58,903 nt of DNA from assembly GCA_012517065.1 (NCBI GenBank), contig JAAYVR010000227.1, forward strand, positions 1-58,903, given 5' to 3'. Position 1 is the first letter of the stretch. Every line of letters begins with the position of its first letter. The position numbers and the translations under genes were made by a program. A model generated the notes under the pieces. It saw nothing but the letters and a program-made list of their open reading frames with translations. It did no database searches and had not been told where the DNA came from. The DNA comes from Verrucomicrobiota bacterium (lineage in GTDB: Bacteria > Verrucomicrobiota > Verrucomicrobiia > Limisphaerales > J093). Of the stretch, positions 35,796 to 56,415 are shown piece by piece.

Positions 35796-36210
35796 CGCAA
35801 ACAACGTGCCTGGAACCAGATCGGCATGACGTAGAAAACAATGTGTCTGTCCCCATATCGGCATTCGAGGGGTTCCACCGCAGACTTCGGCAGCAGCCGA
35901 TTGGAACAAGGGGCAATTCGCTGGCCAGGCCGTAATCAGGGGACAAAACCCAAACAACGTGTCTGTCCCTCTATTTGGGTCCACAACCACACAACGAGCC
36001 TGTCACTCTATTTCTTGTTGGATCTGCGTGGGCGGCAGGCGGCTTGTACAGCATCAAGTTATTTGCCGCCGCATTTGGTTGCCAAGGAACAAGGTGGCGG
36101 CGGAACCGCCACAGTTTATCGAGGCGTGCCATGCACCAAGAGCGGCGGGTTCCAGTTCGGCGTTATTTCACCGGACGCTTGGTCGGTCTGAAGCCGAGCC
36201 GCGCTAAAGG
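35796..36210 (+). repeat. composite repeat, family D, copy 2 (long form)
   Basis: The first half repeats the blocks of 31863-32070. The second half starts at AACGTGTCTGTCCCTCTATT (about 35956) and continues through CATCAAGTTATTTGCCGCCG and AAGAGCGGCGGGTTCCAGTT to about 36210. This second half is shared with the inverted copy at 43640 and with 49905-50128. It is the main content of the gene-free stretch before 36360. Confidence 0.75.
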
Positions 36211-43639: not shown

Positions 43640-44010
43640 CAGTCTAAGAGCAAACCCAGACCAGGCCACTTTTCGGCGCAGCTCCGCTTCCGACCGGGCA
43701 TGCGGTGCAATAATACCGGACTGGAACCGCCGCTCTCGGTCCATGGCCCGCCCTGCTCAAATGTGACCGGTCCGCGGCTACCTCGTCTCTTGGATCGAAT
43801 GTGTGGGCAAATGACTTGATTCTGTACATCCTGCCTGCCACCCACGAACATCCGACAAAGACGCAAATAGAGGGACAGGCACGTTGTTTGGGCGTTGTCC
43901 CCTGATTGCGGCGTGGCTCGCAAATTGTCCCTTGTTTCAATCGGCAGCTGCCGAAGTCTGTGCAGGAACCCCGCGCATGCCGATATGGGGACAGGCACGT
44001 TGTTTGTGGT
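43640..44010 (-). repeat. composite repeat, family D, copy 3 (inverted, long form)
   Basis: Minus-strand blocks in order: AACAACGTGCCTGTCCCCAT (44007-43988), CGGCAGCTGCCGATTGAAAC, GGACAACGCCCAAACAACGT, CCCTCTATTTGCGTC, CATTTGCCCACACATTCGAT and GAGAGCGGCGGTTCCAGTCC. Both halves of the family D unit are present. The 43625-44100 gap has no other content. Confidence 0.75.
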
Positions 44011-49586: not shown

Positions 49587-49787
49587 GCAATCTCCAAACA
49601 GCACTGCTGACCACGGCGCGCCGGGGAGGCCGCGCCTGCCTTGATGAAACCTTCCACAACGTGGGGCGCACGGCCGCTTGCGCGCCGAAGGTAATTCTTT
49701 CAGCCCTAAATGTGACTCCCGCAGGCCCGTGAGCCTTTCCTTAGCCGCAACTCTGCGCCAAGGAAGGGCGGTCGCGCCCCCGCCCCG
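49587..49787. other. start of the 1.06-kb gene-free stretch before the element genes
   Basis: Contains no gene or terminator that I can support. From 49788 the stretch continues with family D copy 4, then the left attachment site and the non-coding left end of the element up to 50646. Confidence 0.4.
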
Positions 49788-50128
49788 AAAACAACGTGCC
49801 TGTCACCATATCGGCATGCGCGGAGTTCCCGCACGTAGTTCAGCAGCCGCGGATTGGAACAAGGGGCGGTCTGCGGGCCATGCTGCAATCTTGATGGCAA
49901 CACCCAAACAATGAGCCTGTCACTCTATTTGAATTCTTTGGATGTCTGCGGATGCAGGCTGCACGTACCGAATCAGTTCGTTAGCCGCCGCATTCGTTTG
50001 CCAATGGACGAAGTGGCCGCGGATCGACTGCGTTTCAGAAGGGCGGACGAGGTGCCGAGATCAGCCATCACCCGTTGCACATTACAACACCGAATGCTCG
50101 GCAAATCTAAAAGACGAAGGCTCTCTGA
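49788..50128 (+). repeat. composite repeat, family D, copy 4 (long form)
   Basis: AACAACGTGCCTGTCACCAT, CATATCGGCATGCG, GCAGCCGCGGATTGGAACAA, AATGAGCCTGTCACTCTATT, then the second half with GTACCGAATCAGTTCGTTAG and AGCCGCCGCATTCGTTTGCC. It ends within a few bases of the left end of the integrated element and so was the original downstream neighbour of tRNA-Gln. Confidence 0.72.
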
Positions 50129-50130
50129 AA

Positions 50131-50165
50131 GGCTTTTTTGGCTGTCCGACCAGGATTCGAACCTG
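50131..50165 (-). other. attL: left attachment site
   Basis: 35 bp identical to 56334-56368, reading GGCTTTTTTGGCTGTCC at the left. It contains the 3' end and most of the T arm of tRNA-Gln only, so it is the displaced copy. Confidence 0.92.
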
Positions 50166-50342
50166 AAAATTCGGCCGTTTTCGCTTGCGTTTCGTTGCTC
50201 ATGGTTTGCCTTTCGTTGCACATCATTGCATAAACAGAATGCCATTTTGTGCAGTACTGTCAAGGGTTTTCTGTGTTTTTATGTGCAAGAATGTGAAGAA
50301 ATCCTTGTGCGATACCGTGTCAGCCCAAAAGTCGAACCTTGT

Positions 50343-50361
50343 TGTGTCAAATTTGTGTCAG
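50343..50361 (+). other. arm-type repeat, left end of element
   Basis: TGTGTCAAATTTGTGTCAG, two direct TGTGTCA boxes 10 bp apart. The identical 19 bp lie near the other end at 56290-56308. Shared short boxes inside both ends are expected of integrase arm-binding sites. The 50166-50646 stretch around it also has two TTTCGTTGC boxes (about 50188 and 50211) and no convincing gene. Confidence 0.6.
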
Positions 50362-50530
50362 AGCCACCCGGCTCGATAGACCAACCCGCAAATCGGCATG
50401 ACAGCCCGCCGCCATTTAGCCAGGCTCGACGATTCGACGGCGGCAAGTGTGGACATAGCCGGCTCGAAACAAAACGCGCCAGAACGGCTTTTAGGTGGCT
50501 TGCCGGCGATTGTCACACATACGCTGACAA

Positions 50531-50570
50531 ATGCAAAAGGCCGGTCAGACCCGCGCTCGCCTGACCGGCC
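50531..50570 (-). terminator. intrinsic terminator of the element operon
   Basis: On the minus strand GGCCGGTCAG (50570-50561) pairs perfectly with CTGACCGGCC (50548-50539) around 12 nt, followed by TTTTGCATTTG. It lies about 77 bp after the DUF5681 gene. Confidence 0.8.
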
Positions 50571-50646
50571 CAACCGCCGCCGAGAGAAACTAAGTGACAA
50601 AAAAGCTCGGCAGCGTTCACGCTACGTGCACCCGCACGCGCGCAAA

Positions 50647-51123
50647 TCATCCAGAATTGCCTGGCACGCCAGCCCCGCCAGCCGGCTCCTGGGCAGGCTC
50701 CTGGCCAGCCGGCACGGGCAATGCCGGCACGGCGCCTGATTCGACGAGCACAATGTCTTCAAATTTCGCTCGCAAAATCTCACGGACTTCATCCGGCGGA
50801 ATCTCGAACGGCGGCACGCCGACAGCAACGTTGACAGTCGATTCTTGCCCCACACCAAGCTCGCCAAGCAATTGCGCGCACACCTTGATGGCGGCAACAT
50901 CGCCCAGCACAGCCTTATCAATCAAAGCTTGAACGATTGCCTTCGTTTGACCTGGGTTGGCCCGCAAATGACGCAGCAACGCAACCTTCAACGAGACCGC
51001 GCCCTTGCGGCGGCCCGACGGATTGCCGCTAACGCCTTTTCGCCAGAGATACGGCTTCAATTGCTCCGGCACACGGTCCGACATCTGCGTGTTCTTAGTC
51101 TGCAAACCACTTTGGTCACTCAT
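50647..51123 (-). CDS. DUF5681 protein, small-terminase-like
   Basis: 158 aa from the ATG at 51123, chosen because it overlaps the preceding stop (ATGA, 51123-51120); a frame to 51237 would run far into that gene. The N-terminal YLWRKGVSGNPSGRRKG is the DUF5681 signature, seen in phages and mobile elements and often next to terminase genes. A helical middle (LLRHLRANPGQTKAIVQALI, VCAQLLGELG) resembles small terminase oligomerisation helices. The tail is rich in Pro, Ala, Gly and Glu and is probably disordered. A DNA-recognition role in packaging is inferred. No large terminase is present. Last gene before a strong terminator. Confidence 0.68.
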   Translation of the reverse strand: MSDQSGLQTKNTQMSDRVPEQLKPYLWRKGVSGNPSGRRKGAVSLKVALLRHLRANPGQTKAIVQALIDKAVLGDVAAIKVCAQLLGELGVGQESTVNVAVGVPPFEIPPDEVREILRAKFEDIVLVESGAVPALPVPAGQEPAQEPAGGAGVPGNSG

Positions 51124-51647
51124 GGATGTAAGAGCCTCCACCTGGTCAATTCGTCGGCCGCCTGGGCGAGCCACAACCAGCTCGGCAACGTTCGATGCTC
51201 CGGCCCGGCATGCTCGAACAAACGCGCTGCCCGCCATTCAGCCCATTCGCGGCTCTCGAACACTGTCAACCTATCCAGCCCTGGCGGCTTGAACGCCTGG
51301 CCGATTAACTCGGATGCTTCGGCCATCGAAAAGTTTGGCACCGGCCCCGGCGGCAGGTTTACCGGCGGCGTCTTATGCTTTTGAAAGTACGCCAACAGCT
51401 CATCCGCAAACATCTCGACGACCCGGCGCACATCGGCCGGCGGCCGGCAACCGTCGTCGTCAAGCACGATAATATCGGACGGCTCCGCCCAGCCGACGCG
51501 CCAACCTCGCACACGCAACCAACAAACGAGAATAACCGCCTGCCGGCCCGGCTCGGCGGGCAAACTCGCGGCATGAAACGGTCCAAGCAACTTGCCCAGT
51601 AAATCGCGGCGGCGTTTCTCGAAGTTTTTGGTTAGGCTGTCAGTCAT
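51120..51647 (-). CDS. element protein, unknown
   Basis: 175 aa, soluble. It begins with a basic helix (TKNFEKRRRDLLGKLLGPFH), has a Trp-rich strand region (LRVRGWRVGWAEPSDIIVLDDDG) and ends with Trp-rich helices (REWAEWRAARLFEHAG, WLWLAQAADELTRWRLL). I do not recognise a family. It starts right after the box array at 51661-51790 and overlaps the DUF5681 gene by 4 bp, so the two are probably a unit whose promoter or control site lies in the array. Confidence 0.7.
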   Translation of the reverse strand: MTDSLTKNFEKRRRDLLGKLLGPFHAASLPAEPGRQAVILVCWLRVRGWRVGWAEPSDIIVLDDDGCRPPADVRRVVEMFADELLAYFQKHKTPPVNLPPGPVPNFSMAEASELIGQAFKPPGLDRLTVFESREWAEWRAARLFEHAGPEHRTLPSWLWLAQAADELTRWRLLHP

Positions 51648-51660
51648 GACTCACCCCCCC

Positions 51661-51790
51661 CTGGAAAGAATGGCAGGAATAAATCGCGCCCCTGGCAGTT
51701 TGGCTGTGAAAGAATACCCTGTAAGGGTATTCTTTCCAGCCCTGCCAGAACTGCCCTGGAAAGAACTTGGAAAAAATAAATTCTTTCCAG
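51661..51790. promoter_or_regulatory. iteron-like array: candidate origin or operator of the element
   Basis: The 147-bp gap between two genes holds four perfect copies of CTGGAAAGAA: 51661-51670 (+), 51730-51739 (-), 51756-51765 (+) and 51781-51790 (-). A fifth, with one inserted base, lies at 51704-51714 (+). The last four start 26, 26 and 25 bp apart. Two pairs form inverted repeats: GAAAGAATACCC/GGGTATTCTTTC (51708-51736, perfect 12-bp stem, extended by GGCTG/CAGCC) and a pair flanking a 15-bp A-rich centre (51766-51780). It lies directly after the replication-type ATPase gene. An origin bound by that protein or an operator are both possible. Confidence 0.7.
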
Positions 51791-51794
51791 GCTG

Positions 51795-53441
51795 TCATGC
51801 ACGTTTGCCGCCATTGAAACTTTCCCAAACTTTTCTGCCTTCATCTGTGATTGCTTGCCGGATGCCGTGTTCGTCTTCAACCGTCTGAATCCAACCGCTC
51901 GCCCGCATCGCCCTGGCATAATTGCAAAGTGTCCTTCGTACCAGGCCGCACTCATCCGCCCAACTCGACATGGTCAACGGCCCGCGCTCGATCAATGCGC
52001 CCAAAAATTGTCGGCTATCATGTTCTGGCTTACGCCCGCCACCTGGCTTGCGAAGCCGTGTTGGATCAAGCCCGGCTTGGCGTTCAAACAATGGGTAATT
52101 CCACCGTACAACAAATTCCTCGACCGGCGGGAACGATCGCAATGTTGCTTCCACAACAAAATGATCGTCCAGTTCGTGCCGTGTCAACGTCGCAATCCCG
52201 TCCGGCGCCCTTGAAAATACACTGCTTCCAGCAACTCGATCGATTGAAAACTTCTGGCTCGGATCTCCTTTGGCGTAGTGCGCCACGAAGACGACTGCAC
52301 ATTGCCCTTCGACAGCCACCCGCTCAATGCAACGCATGATCAAAGCGACGTCGGTTTGCGTTCGCTCATCCGTGGTCTCGCCGTAAACCCTGTAAACCGG
52401 ATCAATCAGAATCAGCCCGACTCTGAGCCTCCAAACTTCTGACAAAATGTCGGATACAAGCTGATCGATCGACCGCGTGCTACCCCGCAGAAACATTGCA
52501 GACACAGCGCCCGGCCGCATCGTGATGCCCCTGGCTTCGGCTATGGCCGACAACCTACCCGCGAGCATCCAATCGGCCAACTCAAATGACAAATACAGCG
52601 TGTTCACTGGCTGAGGCACGGTAAACCCAAGCCACGGGATGCCGTGTGAAATGCACATCAACATGTCGAGCGCGAACCAGCTTTTAAACGATTTGCTCTG
52701 GCCGCCGATCATCATCACGTCAGCTTGATGCAGCAGTCCATCAACGAGAACCGGCGGCTCGGCCGGCGGATCAGCAAGCAACTCTGACACGTCAACGGCC
52801 GGCATCGAGCTTGGGATTTGTCGCTGAAGGTAACGGCCGGCATCGATCAGCCCGGCCAACACGTGGCCGGCAGGAACATCGCCCAATGCGGCGCGCGCCT
52901 CGTCCATCATGGCGAGCAGACGGCGTTTGACGTGCGCGTCCAGAACATCGCGTAGATGATGCTCAAGCAACTCTCCTTCGCCCAAAGATTTCTCCGGCAA
53001 TGATGACGCCCAGGCCAAAAATCTCGCAGAAATCTCCGGGTTTTTGGTCAGCGCCAACGCCCGTTTTTCGAAGTGCAAGCAAATCGTCGGAAAGTCCAAA
53101 TGCGCGCCTGATTGTGCCAAGTCCTTGATCGTGTCAAACAGAAGTTTGCAACGTTCGTCGTTGAAGGGAACATCGCCGTTCAATCTTGCCAGCGTTCGTG
53201 GGATCAGCGTCGGCTCTTCCAACAAGGCACCGAGTACGACGCACTCAGACATTGAAGCATCCGGCAATTCTGCTGTGCTCGCGGGCAAGCTCGGCGCCGC
53301 CCGGCTTGGCACTCGATCATAGTCGCGCTCGTTCGCGCACAACACCCAGCCGTTGCGCCGAATTTTCCATTGCCACCATTGATTCAGCGCCCAGTCAAAA
53401 ATTCGGAACGCGCCCTCTGAGACTTTTTCAAAAACATTCAT
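51795..53441 (-). CDS. element replication ATPase (DnaB-N plus RepA-like AAA domain)
   Basis: 548 aa from the ATG at 53441; an in-frame TTG lies 9 bp upstream. Residues about 60-190 resemble the DnaB N-terminal helical domain (SECVVLGALLEEPTLIPRTL). Residues about 235-430 form a RecA/RepA-type ATPase with Walker A GGQSKSFKS (Ser-Phe replacing the usual Gly before Lys) and Walker B LILIDPVYR, plus a VVFVAHYAK sensor strand. The C-terminal about 90 residues look like a winged helix (LTMSSWADECGLVRRTLCNYA). Proteins of this layout are replicative helicases or initiators of phages, plasmids and satellites. Starts 74 bp after the previous gene; its stop adjoins the 10-bp box array. Confidence 0.8.
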   Translation of the reverse strand: MNVFEKVSEGAFRIFDWALNQWWQWKIRRNGWVLCANERDYDRVPSRAAPSLPASTAELPDASMSECVVLGALLEEPTLIPRTLARLNGDVPFNDERCKLLFDTIKDLAQSGAHLDFPTICLHFEKRALALTKNPEISARFLAWASSLPEKSLGEGELLEHHLRDVLDAHVKRRLLAMMDEARAALGDVPAGHVLAGLIDAGRYLQRQIPSSMPAVDVSELLADPPAEPPVLVDGLLHQADVMMIGGQSKSFKSWFALDMLMCISHGIPWLGFTVPQPVNTLYLSFELADWMLAGRLSAIAEARGITMRPGAVSAMFLRGSTRSIDQLVSDILSEVWRLRVGLILIDPVYRVYGETTDERTQTDVALIMRCIERVAVEGQCAVVFVAHYAKGDPSQKFSIDRVAGSSVFSRAPDGIATLTRHELDDHFVVEATLRSFPPVEEFVVRWNYPLFERQAGLDPTRLRKPGGGRKPEHDSRQFLGALIERGPLTMSSWADECGLVRRTLCNYARAMRASGWIQTVEDEHGIRQAITDEGRKVWESFNGGKRA

Positions 53442-53524
53442 GCCGATCAAAGTTCATGCCGATGTTCTTTTTTTGTGGAGCGTGCGGACTCGGCATGAAA
53501 CATCCGCACGCCCCGTGTTTCGCC

Positions 53525-54010
53525 TCAGTGCCCGTCCGGCGAAAAAATTCTGCGCAACGGCACCGTCGGCCCGGTCACAACGAACATTTGGCCCTCGTTC
53601 GCGGCAGCCAGGCTCGACGTTGACGTGCCGGCAACCGGATACGTGCCGCTCAAAATCGCATTTGCGAATTGTTCGGCCTGGCTTTTGCTGGGATAAACGT
53701 AGCGTTTTTGTTCACGCCCGACTTTGTGCACAACCATGTACTTGTTCGTTCGAGCATCATGCTCAATACGGACGTCGCCCGGTACAACTTTCTCGTTGCC
53801 GGCGGCTTTGCCCAGCCCTGTTTCGAGCTTTTTGCTGCTGCCCCAGCCGAATCGCGCCGCCAGCGCTTGCGCCAGAAACTTGTATTCGACGGAAGGCACG
53901 ACTACAGCGCCGTTCACGATGATGCGATAAGTGCCGTCCGAGTTTTTGGTGATTCGGATTTCAAGCGGCCCATTATTCAGTGATGGAGTTTTAGTCGATG
54001 TCATTGGCAT
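53525..54010 (-). CDS. element protein, unknown
   Basis: 161 aa, basic, mostly beta: EIRITKNSDGTYRIIVNG, VRIEHDARTNKYMVVHKVG and RYVYPSKSQAEQFANAILSG. The last part suggests a small nucleic-acid-binding domain, but no family is recognised. It overlaps the preceding gene by 20 bp. The ATG at 54004 (MTSTKTPS) is an alternative start. Confidence 0.7.
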   Translation of the reverse strand: MPMTSTKTPSLNNGPLEIRITKNSDGTYRIIVNGAVVVPSVEYKFLAQALAARFGWGSSKKLETGLGKAAGNEKVVPGDVRIEHDARTNKYMVVHKVGREQKRYVYPSKSQAEQFANAILSGTYPVAGTSTSSLAAANEGQMFVVTGPTVPLRRIFSPDGH

Positions 54011-54608
54011 TCCTCAGTTGTCTGTTTTCAGGAATGGTTTGAAAAATTGCGGGCAGCTCGCCGGCCAAAATGCGCTCGATTTGATCGAGCAAACGCTCGG
54101 CGCCCACCGGCGCCTCGACTGGTGGCCGGCATTGGGATTGATGCTGAAATTCTCGCAACGCCTTAACCCTGGGCAATTGCATAATCCAGTCCTCGACTCG
54201 CCAGTCGAGAATCCACGGTTTGATCGACTCGGCCGCCTCGTGCTCGATGCTCGCCACAATCGGATCAAGCGCACGTGAAAATTCGGTCAATGCATCTTCA
54301 AGCTCACTACGCAAATTTTGCCGCAAGCCGGCTCGACGCCGTTCGGCCGCGTGCAGCGCCTCACGCAACACGCCCGGCCGGGCACGCAACTCGACAACGC
54401 GCTTAATCGCGTCCTCGCTGAAATCGGAAATCGGCGTTTGAAGCGCCGCGGTTTCAGCCTGTGCGAGCATCTGTTGGCCGCGCTCGATGTCATGCTCAGC
54501 TTTTGAGTACTCGGACAACGCCTGGCGCAACCGCTCGGCGGCTTGTTGAAGTCTCGCCCTCGATTCGACGGTCAAAGCCGGCCCGCCGGTGTTCGTGGTT
54601 GCGTTCAT
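53991..54608 (-). CDS. element coiled-coil protein, unknown
   Basis: 205 aa from the ATG at 54608, which overlaps the HTH-gene stop (ATGA); a frame to 54695 would overlap far more. Residues about 15-130 are a long charged helix or coiled coil (RARLQQAAERLRQALSEYSK, RREALHAAERRRAGLRQNLR-type pattern). The end is more mixed (WILDWRVEDWIMQLPRVKAL). The family is not recognised. Its place between the HTH gene and replication gene suggests an accessory role in replication or regulation. Confidence 0.7.
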   Translation of the reverse strand: MNATTNTGGPALTVESRARLQQAAERLRQALSEYSKAEHDIERGQQMLAQAETAALQTPISDFSEDAIKRVVELRARPGVLREALHAAERRRAGLRQNLRSELEDALTEFSRALDPIVASIEHEAAESIKPWILDWRVEDWIMQLPRVKALREFQHQSQCRPPVEAPVGAERLLDQIERILAGELPAIFQTIPENRQLRNANDID

Positions 54609-54856
54609 TCGACTTTCCTCCTTTGCGAGTTGGCCAACGTGAGAACAGTGCCGCGCCTTTGGTTGGACAACAACGCGCCGCGAACGGATTCCCAATCGTA
54701 CAAAACGCGCCGTGTTAGTTTGATGAATGGCAGCCTGCCTTCACGCCGCAGCGCATAAAGCGTTCGGCGCGAAATCGGCAGCCTACTTAATAACTCATTT
54801 TCACTCAGTAACCTGTTTTCGCTTGTTGTTTCTGATCTCATAATGTTTGTACTCAT
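54605..54856 (-). CDS. small HTH protein, probable excisionase/regulator
   Basis: 83 aa from the ATG at 54856; Met at 54841 is an alternative. One MerR/Xis-type helix-turn-helix: LLSENELLSRLPISRRTLYA, then LRREGRLPFIKLTRRVLYD and a basic end. Proteins of this size beside a tyrosine integrase usually act as excisionase or as the operon regulator. The ATG is about 10 bp after a candidate -10 box, so the transcript would be almost leaderless. A dyad overlaps the -35 box. Confidence 0.8.
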   Translation of the reverse strand: MSTNIMRSETTSENRLLSENELLSRLPISRRTLYALRREGRLPFIKLTRRVLYDWESVRGALLSNQRRGTVLTLANSQRRKVE

Positions 54857-54865
54857 AACAGGCAC

Positions 54866-54898
54866 TTTATCACGCAACTTGTTACTTGGCGTCAAGTA
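54866..54898 (-). promoter_or_regulatory. candidate promoter and operator of the element operon
   Basis: Minus-strand TTGACG (54895-54890) and GATAAA (54871-54866) with an 18-bp spacer. The perfect dyad TACTTG-GCGT-CAAGTA (54883-54898, plus strand) covers the -35 box, as a repressor site would. Confidence 0.45.
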
Positions 54899-54919
54899 CC
54901 TCAGAAATAGCAACAATGA

Positions 54920-54955
54920 GAAAACCCGCGTCGTTATTGAACGAAACGCGGGTTT
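54920..54955 (-). terminator. terminator downstream of the element integrase
   Basis: AAAACCCGCGT (54920-54930) and ACGCGGGTTTT (54945-54955) form a perfect 11-bp stem with T/A runs on both strands. On the minus strand it ends integrase transcription 25 bp after the stop and separates it from the HTH-led operon. Confidence 0.8.
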
Positions 54956-54980
54956 TGCCCAAAGCGTTTTGTGTTTTTGG

Positions 54981-56315
54981 TCAGTGCCCGGCGGTGATGG
55001 AAACAACGTTTTGCGGCCGTTGCGGCACGACGTCGAACCATAGCCGCGCCTCACTTTCGCTGACAAGCCCTCGGTAATTCGCGTGCAACATCGTCGGATC
55101 GTGGCCGGCCTGGCTTGCGGTCAAATTTTCGTCGTTCGTCAGCGCAAAATAGTGCGAAACCCAACCGTGCCGAAGACCGTTTCGACGATACGGTATGCCC
55201 AGCGACGTTCGCACTTTGTTGAATCTATAAAGATAAACTCCCCTTGTGTCCGTCCACACCCGCCCCGTTCGGCCTCGATACGGTTCAAGCCAGGCAGCCA
55301 GGGTTGGACACATCTTGACCAGCCGTCGGCTCCGAAGCTTGGCGATTTCGGCCCCGATTTCGATGTGCCCCTCGACGCTGAACACATTCGCCCAGCTCAT
55401 GCGAAGCGCTTCTTCAAGCCGCACGCCTCCGAATGCCTGCAACGCGATTATCGGCACAAGTTCAGCCGGCGCAGCATCAAGCAAGGCTCGCAGTTCGTTC
55501 ACACGATAAAAATCAACTCTTGCTCGAACAACCGGTTCTTTTTTCAACGCATCGCAATTGACCAGCTTGCTCGCTTGCGTCGGCTCGATGTAATCGCGCA
55601 ACGTACACCAACGCAAAAACTGTTTGATTGTTGCCCGCCTATCGTTTCGACTCTTGGCAGCCAGCCGGCCGAACTTCGACATGTGCAAGTCCAGCCCCTC
55701 GACACTCAAATGCCCGACCTGGCAATTCTGAAACGTATTGCAAAGCTCGATCAGATAATCTTCGACGATATCGACGTAACGCTCGCACAATGCCGGCCGG
55801 CCGCCGTTGTTCGACACGCTCTTGGCTCGTTGAAGCGCGACAAACGACTTCACGGCTTCATCAAGCCGCATCGGTTTGAGCTTGGCCATGACGCGCAGAT
55901 ACTGTTTCACGACATTCACCACCGACTCGCCATCACCAAGCAGCTTGGCGGCCTCGACGTATTCGCTCACGACTTGCGAGGCCGACATCTTCCTGCCCGT
56001 TGCCGCGTGAAGCTCTGCCAGCAAATCGCGAATTCCGAGCATGTCAGTCACTTCACGCGGCGTCAGCGCCCTCGATTCGGCGCCCCGGCACAGTTCGTCC
56101 AACACGGTTCTGGCGGCGTGGAGCGCATCCGAATACTTCTTGAACGACTCGACAACCCGTTTGCCCGCGGCGTAAAAGGCAACTCGATAACTAGGGTAGG
56201 CGGCTGTTCGGCCGTAGATGCGCACTTCGGCCCGCCGCTTGCGCAGTTTGACCGGGAATTTCATCTTGCCAGTCTTTTCGTCGGGAATCTGTGTCAAATT
56301 TGTGTCAGGAACCAC
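54981..56315 (-). CDS. tyrosine-type site-specific integrase of the element
   Basis: 444 aa from a GTG at 56315 with a GGGGGG ribosome-binding stretch close upstream. An ATG at 56264 (MKFPVKLRKRRAEVRIYG) is a good alternative and would leave the 19-bp arm repeat outside the gene. An N-terminal arm-binding-like domain (about 18-75) precedes a SAM-like core-binding domain (about 155-255) and the catalytic domain. Catalytic residues seen: Arg in FGGVRLEEAL, Arg382-His383 in RNGLRHGW (the usual first His is Asn379), His405 in AGHDP and Tyr414 in HANYRG. It acts on the tRNA-Gln 3' end, 27 bp from its own 5' end. Transcribed separately from the rest of the element. Confidence 0.92.
   Translation of the reverse strand: MVPDTNLTQIPDEKTGKMKFPVKLRKRRAEVRIYGRTAAYPSYRVAFYAAGKRVVESFKKYSDALHAARTVLDELCRGAESRALTPREVTDMLGIRDLLAELHAATGRKMSASQVVSEYVEAAKLLGDGESVVNVVKQYLRVMAKLKPMRLDEAVKSFVALQRAKSVSNNGGRPALCERYVDIVEDYLIELCNTFQNCQVGHLSVEGLDLHMSKFGRLAAKSRNDRRATIKQFLRWCTLRDYIEPTQASKLVNCDALKKEPVVRARVDFYRVNELRALLDAAPAELVPIIALQAFGGVRLEEALRMSWANVFSVEGHIEIGAEIAKLRSRRLVKMCPTLAAWLEPYRGRTGRVWTDTRGVYLYRFNKVRTSLGIPYRRNGLRHGWVSHYFALTNDENLTASQAGHDPTMLHANYRGLVSESEARLWFDVVPQRPQNVVSITAGH
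56290..56308 (+). other. arm-type repeat, right end of element
   Basis: Same 19 bp as 50343-50361, in the same orientation, 25 bp inside the right attachment core and overlapping the first codons of the long form of the integrase. Confidence 0.6.
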
Positions 56316-56333
56316 AGACCCCCCGTTTTCATT

Positions 56334-56368
56334 GGCTTTTTTGGCTGTCCGACCAGGATTCGAACCTG
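56334..56368 (-). other. attR: right attachment site within tRNA-Gln
   Basis: 35 bp identical to 50131-50165. It covers the 3' part of the intact tRNA-Gln (acceptor 3' strand and T arm) plus 8 bp beyond the CCA end. Confidence 0.92.
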
Positions 56369-56415
56369 GACTAAAGGCTCCAAAGACCTCTGTGCTACCG
56401 TTACACCATCGGACA
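56342..56415 (-). tRNA. tRNA-Gln (anticodon TTG)
   Basis: On the minus strand the gene begins TGTCCGA and ends TCGGACAGCCA, giving the U1-A72 pair typical of tRNA-Gln, with CCA encoded. The anticodon loop CTTTGGA gives TTG. The T arm is CCAGG TTCGAAT CCTGG. Its 3' end is the integration target of the 6.2-kb element, which keeps the gene intact. Confidence 0.95.

Follow-up and report, generated by a model that had tools for sequence, protein, structure and literature searches.

Is the small island inserted at a tRNA-Gln gene of a Verrucomicrobiota bacterium (Limisphaerales; J093) a phage satellite that borrows the particles of a helper, as the original prediction held, or a mobile or decaying element of another kind? 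We addressed this question in the contig that carries it (JAAYVR010000227.1 of assembly GCA_012517065.1; 58,903 nt, hereafter the window). An exact 35-bp direct repeat at 50131-50165 and 56334-56368 bounds an element of 6.2 kb, and since the right copy consists of the last 27 nt of tRNA-Gln(TTG) followed by 8 nt, the predicted 35-bp duplication of the tRNA 3' end is borne out at both ends of the island:

50131-50165, no strand: distal att core, 35 bp, a displaced tRNA fragment (exact repeat)
50166-50646, no strand: distal non-coding end with the att arm region (sequence and arm-site array)
56334-56368, no strand: tRNA-side att core, 35 bp (exact repeat; 27 nt of tRNA 3' end plus 8 nt)
56342-56415, minus strand: intact tRNA-Gln(TTG), the integration target (ARAGORN)

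A 121-bp query taken from position 50100 matched the host genome at these two repeat places only, and in a control a repeat of at least 26 nt more than 1 kb away was found for 6 of 520 random 130-nt segments of related loci. The GC content of the island (0.563) resembles that of its flanks (0.560 and 0.580), so that composition does not signal a recent import. A same-genus relative has kept the tRNA-Gln, and the island is absent from the 162 bp readable there before the contig ends. Separately, a dispersed repeat of about 270 bp is located at 49780-50060 (just outside the distal att core), 43734-44005 and 35834-36104, and dozens of copies with about 71-84% identity are scattered through the genomes of the host and the same-genus relative.

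The interior of the island holds seven genes, all on the minus strand, which agrees with the claim that an integrase adjoining the tRNA and its co-oriented companions are packed into 6.2 kb. Starting from the integrase, the order is as follows:

54981-56315, minus strand: tyrosine integrase, 444 aa (phrog_1, 1.1e-18; Pfam Phage_integrase, 0.008, below cut-off)
54605-54856, minus strand: small HTH_17 protein, excisionase- or regulator-like, 83 aa (PF12728, 1.2e-6; phrog_66, 5.5e-7)
53991-54608, minus strand: coiled-coil-like protein, 205 aa (no family above cut-off)
53525-54010, minus strand: 161-aa protein (no family; no homologue in the loci fetched)
51795-53450, minus strand: replication ATPase/helicase, about 548-551 aa (PF13481, 4.5e-25; PF00772, 3.2e-6; phrog_2597, 2e-36)
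51650-51795, no strand: candidate origin or operator, with CTGGAAAGAA present four times (twice per direction) and the palindrome GAATACCCTGTAAGGGTATTC
51120-51647, minus strand: 175-aa protein (no family above cut-off)
50647-51123, minus strand: DUF5681 protein, 158 aa, proposed small terminase-like packaging selector (PF18932, 2.6e-10; synteny in relatives)

Profile searches thus recovered the short HTH gene (HTH_17, 1e-6), the helicase- or initiator-type ATPase (AAA_25, 4.5e-25; DnaB_N, 3e-6) and the DUF5681 gene (2.6e-10) that had been named from the letters alone, and the reported lack of structural genes held as well, no virion gene being present among the seven proteins. The integrase profile matches the solved integrases 5c6k and 5dor, and its residues R299, R382-H383, H411 and Y414 are invariant in 16 relatives, while homologues of the HTH_17 protein occur in many related islands. 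Two gene junctions overlap in an ATGA, that between the HTH gene stop and the start of the 205-aa gene and that between the stop of the 175-aa gene and the start of DUF5681 (51120-51123). The ATPase combines DnaB_N and AAA_25 domains with a C-terminal winged-helix-like domain, by homology a replication function of the island's own, and had no match when compared with viral contigs; the fold model of the 175-aa protein (pLDDT 40) was uninformative. Exactly four copies of CTGGAAAGAA exist in the whole window, two per direction and all within 51661-51790, so the repeat cluster behind the predicted origin is real and an origin function is suggested by it.

Within the host's order, Limisphaerales, 65 of the 320 genomes have a relative of the integrase, admitted to the family at E <= 1e-60, and the genome contigs with matches are labelled nearly all as Verrucomicrobiota, many as subdivision 3, Pedosphaera or Limisphaerales. 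For the 62 distinct integrases, 59 loci include enough upstream sequence, and 52 of these have a same-strand tRNA just upstream (27-110 nt from the integrase match, with one outlier at 698 nt); the target tRNAs are Gln, Leu, Asn, Pro, Val, Lys, Arg, Met and SeC. Exact repeats of at least 26 bp were found at 17 of the 24 loci having at least 7 kb downstream, compared to the 6 of 520 control segments, and they delimit 17 bounded elements with repeats of 26-51 bp and sizes of 6.2-17.9 kb, 13 of them under 11 kb. Scans of the fetched loci, which reach as far as about 18 kb on the downstream side of the integrase, revealed no recognised capsid or portal: within the order, relatives of this integrase belong to small islands and not to the full prophages that would have told against the prediction. 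The island belongs to a widespread family of small mobile islands that is seemingly new to the literature.

A second exact repeat, of 19 bp, had been overlooked in the original prediction and marks both ends of the island:

50343-50361, no strand: putative distal arm-type site, about 180-195 nt from the distal core (exact 19-bp repeat; family geometry)
56290-56308, no strand: putative arm-type integrase site on the tRNA side (exact 19-bp repeat; family geometry)

On the tRNA side it contains two GACACA copies 11 bp apart, positioned about 25 nt from the core and overlapping the start of the integrase gene. Across the family the rule is a pair of GACACA or GCACA motifs spaced 9-12 bp, with tRNA-side pairs about 26-73 nt inside the core in 15 of the 17 bounded elements, distal pairs (usually two or three, phased) about 133-230 nt inside the core in 16 of 17, and sites on both sides in 15 of 17; no such pair was found in 151 kb of element interior. 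Because the pattern was defined after the repeats had been seen, these counts are a description of the family and not a blind test. We read the pairs as integrase arm sites, with binding predicted from their arrangement, and the array provides a sequence signature by which such islands can be located.

DUF5681 was claimed to be tied to packaging, and its gene neighbourhoods argue for this tie. Few genomes of the order have the domain (5 of 196); in one order relative (L159) the very next gene is a large terminase (Terminase_6N, 7.8e-14), with a portal (2e-73) after it, and in another (L160) it overlaps a terminase-like gene (a weaker match, 1e-4). At 50 IMG/VR loci the Pfam matches of the next large gene after DUF5681 are almost wholly to terminases, with Terminase_3 in 26 and Terminase_6N in 21, counts that possibly overlap and thus give a terminase ATPase at 26 or more of the 50. 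In two named phages, Microcystis phage Mae-JY35 and Rhizobium phage RHph_N3_2, the gene annotated as large terminase is likewise overlapped by a DUF5681-like gene, as revealed with a relative's copy as query because the island's own copy matched no named phage by tblastn; identity between the island protein and phage copies is only about 20-36%. The domain corresponds to no named TerS family and to no solved structure: the model of the island protein (mean pLDDT 69) had no significant match in a fold search, and its profile hit no solved terminase in the PDB, chance matches only. As virion proteomics of a Salmonella phage also detected a DUF5681 protein (PMC8954984), the small-terminase role is well supported by synteny and is not the sole possibility. 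On this basis, the designation of DUF5681 as a small-terminase-like packaging protein is a supported prediction. The DUF5681 protein closest to that of the island (L158:761-1231; 38% over 80 aa) is encoded close to where a contig stops, and no phage gene was recognised next to it.

Packaging genes recur in a minority of the family. Among loci with at least 7 kb downstream, terminase or DUF5681 was recognised at four only: the window; a 6.5-kb tRNA-Val element (L278) with a replication initiator-like gene and distal TerS (phrog_4102, 2e-10) and TerL (phrog_979, 6e-38) genes; L282, with integrase, HTH, TerS and TerL; and the 13.1-kb L288, with TerL (4e-148) and a DNA methyltransferase. A second tRNA-Gln island (L264) has a PrimPol-like gene and DUF5681 at the contig end, where it is cut off. 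On IMG/VR contigs, L358 presents integrase, HTH, PrimPol, TerS and TerL on 5.2 kb, L360 is a 14.1-kb tRNA-Asn element with AAA_25 and TerS-like and TerL-like genes followed by host genes, and L359 likewise has packaging genes without capsid or portal. No recognised capsid or portal was found in L278, L282, L288 or L358-L360, and for L360 this includes portal PF04860 and HK97 capsid PF05065. The IMG/VR contigs are no proof of encapsidation, as their ends show no repeats and tRNA or host DNA is part of L359 and L360. Terminase genes are taken in a review to suggest mobilisation by phages (PMC11389934), and packaging genes without shell genes in several members suggest travel inside the particles of other viruses. 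A 10-kb tRNA-Glu-bounded element (L117:4170-14204) with HTH_17, DUF3102, an AAA_25 primase-helicase and a lone HK97 major capsid gene was considered as a close relative and rejected; as its integrase is only 27% identical, it was left out of the family evidence.

Taken as a whole, we think it probable, with considerable room for doubt, that the island is an intact integrative element of the phage-satellite type whose DUF5681 protein steers the packaging of a helper. Precise insertion at the 3' end of tRNA-Gln is seen in the sequence. The integrase and the HTH protein, the latter acting as excisionase or switch, would release the island in circular form at the 35-bp cores by way of the GACACA arm sites, and the CTGGAAAGAA array would be where the AAA_25/DnaB-like protein initiates replication. 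During activity of a tailed phage, DUF5681 as small terminase would steer the helper's large terminase to island DNA, a step that we propose on grounds of synteny and of analogy with the TerS-encoding SaPIs, which are the precedent for an own small terminase that redirects packaging (PMC10690885); no pac or cos site was identified in the island. Relatives with both TerS and TerL would need only heads and tails from the helper.

The reading that survives best beside this one, and which we nonetheless hold to be unlikely, is that of a generic or tycheposon-like integrative island, which excises, re-integrates and replicates by its own means without a dedicated hijack of virions, spreads through generalised transduction, in vesicles or by natural uptake, and carries DUF5681 as incidental cargo. 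It draws on the cargo of most family members, which consists of restriction-modification, RhuM, AbiEii, Sel1 or unrecognised genes and not of packaging genes (in the further elements, among the 25 of 59 families listed by a Pfam scan that is not exhaustive), as at L261:568-8211, where an element of this integrase family has a 51-bp repeat at tRNA-Pro and includes type I restriction-like genes in its cargo; in this respect a satellite composition does not extend to most of the relatives. It also draws on the search for a helper prophage, which detected none in the host genome (95% complete): portal PF04860, HK97 capsid PF05065 and Terminase_6N were all absent from it, and a phrog_2 match is probably chromosomal, being weak and conserved in the same-genus relative. 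The helper may be lytic or absent. On the other hand, terminase or DUF5681 genes recur in independent members, mostly co-oriented with the integrase and without other phage structural genes, and in the island DUF5681 stands in an operon-like array, its gene overlapping the one upstream.

We regard as improbable, and as already disfavoured, the possibility that the island is a degraded prophage that has kept its integrase, replication and small terminase genes. Prophages of the same order do have related AAA_25 replicases followed by TerS, TerL and portal, but they use another integrase type, whereas members of the island's integrase family have small size, gene order and att design in common and lack a recognised capsid or portal in the loci described above; moreover, the reading frames of the island are intact and its att repeats exact. 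AAA relatives (L128-L137) were also considered as terminase-bearing satellites and rejected, because a gene family found in several of them has a member in L130 that matches portal proteins. The loci L128-L132, L136, L137 and L141, with a tandem pair of related large genes (possibly integrases), HTH, a resolvase-like gene, AAA_25 replicase, TerS-like gene, TerL and portal, are probably prophages of the order, and order prophages of this composition are candidate helper types. Least probable is an integrative mobilisable element moved by a borrowed conjugation machine, which the size, tRNA target and integrase would also fit and for which three proteins without assigned family leave some room, since no relaxase, coupling protein or other conjugation gene was found in the seven proteins or in eight bounded elements whose Pfam scan was fully listed.

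How, then, does the putative satellite relate to named systems? The island shows site-specific chromosomal integration with its own integrase, a replication function of its own as judged by homology, and no gene set for a complete virion, three features of phage satellites. The description "typical of satellites" fits an island that is precisely bounded at tRNA-Gln, encodes an integrase and a replication protein for itself and lacks virion genes, but is too general, as no named satellite family was matched. With the TerS-encoding PICIs and SaPIs it shares a chromosomal att-site island, a terminal integrase, its own replication gene, a putative TerS-like gene and the lack of an own capsid; it differs from them in its phylum, its tRNA 3'-end target, its distinct integrase clade and att array and its AAA_25/DnaB_N replicase, and no SaPI regulator or capsid-remodelling gene was recognised in it. 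PICIs redirect packaging by TerS, or at cos with Rpp, and the island's DUF5681 occupies the TerS position by synteny with an unmatched fold. In PICIs a phage-encoded inducer relieves a master repressor; the sole candidate regulator found in the island is the excisionase-like HTH_17 protein. PICMIs of Vibrionaceae are similarly minimal, with an integrase, a small regulator, a replication protein and no capsid-remodelling genes, but they adjoin fis and no terS homologue was found in them, unlike the tRNA-Gln island with DUF5681. Some relatives resemble cfPICIs in having their own TerS and TerL, yet cfPICIs also encode capsid, portal, protease and connectors, none of which is among the island's seven proteins, nor is any P4-like sid, psu, delta or alpha primase-helicase family. 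By these feature tests, the island is not a cfPICI, a P4-like element or a PICMI. Tycheposons of Prochlorococcus and VEIMEs are small elements bounded by tRNA sequence; their tyrosine recombinase adjoins the tRNA, and their cargo varies. The island resembles them in architecture and differs in belonging to another phylum. As predicted from its genes, it would work like a TerS-type PICI and look like a tycheposon, a resemblance in features and not an assignment to either group.

We tentatively suggest, at somewhat less than even confidence, that these elements form a new satellite family, widespread in Limisphaerales, that unites one tRNA-targeting integrase clade, a phased arm-site array and interchangeable packaging modules (DUF5681 alone, TerS with TerL, or TerL alone) in the absence of capsid genes, a combination undescribed for PICI, cfPICI, P4, PLE or PICMI. 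If true, DUF5681 would gain a testable function as small terminase, and the family would offer a natural series of packaging takeovers of rising autonomy on one common integration module. Phage satellites would then extend to an abundant soil and freshwater phylum for which none are described in the literature searched.
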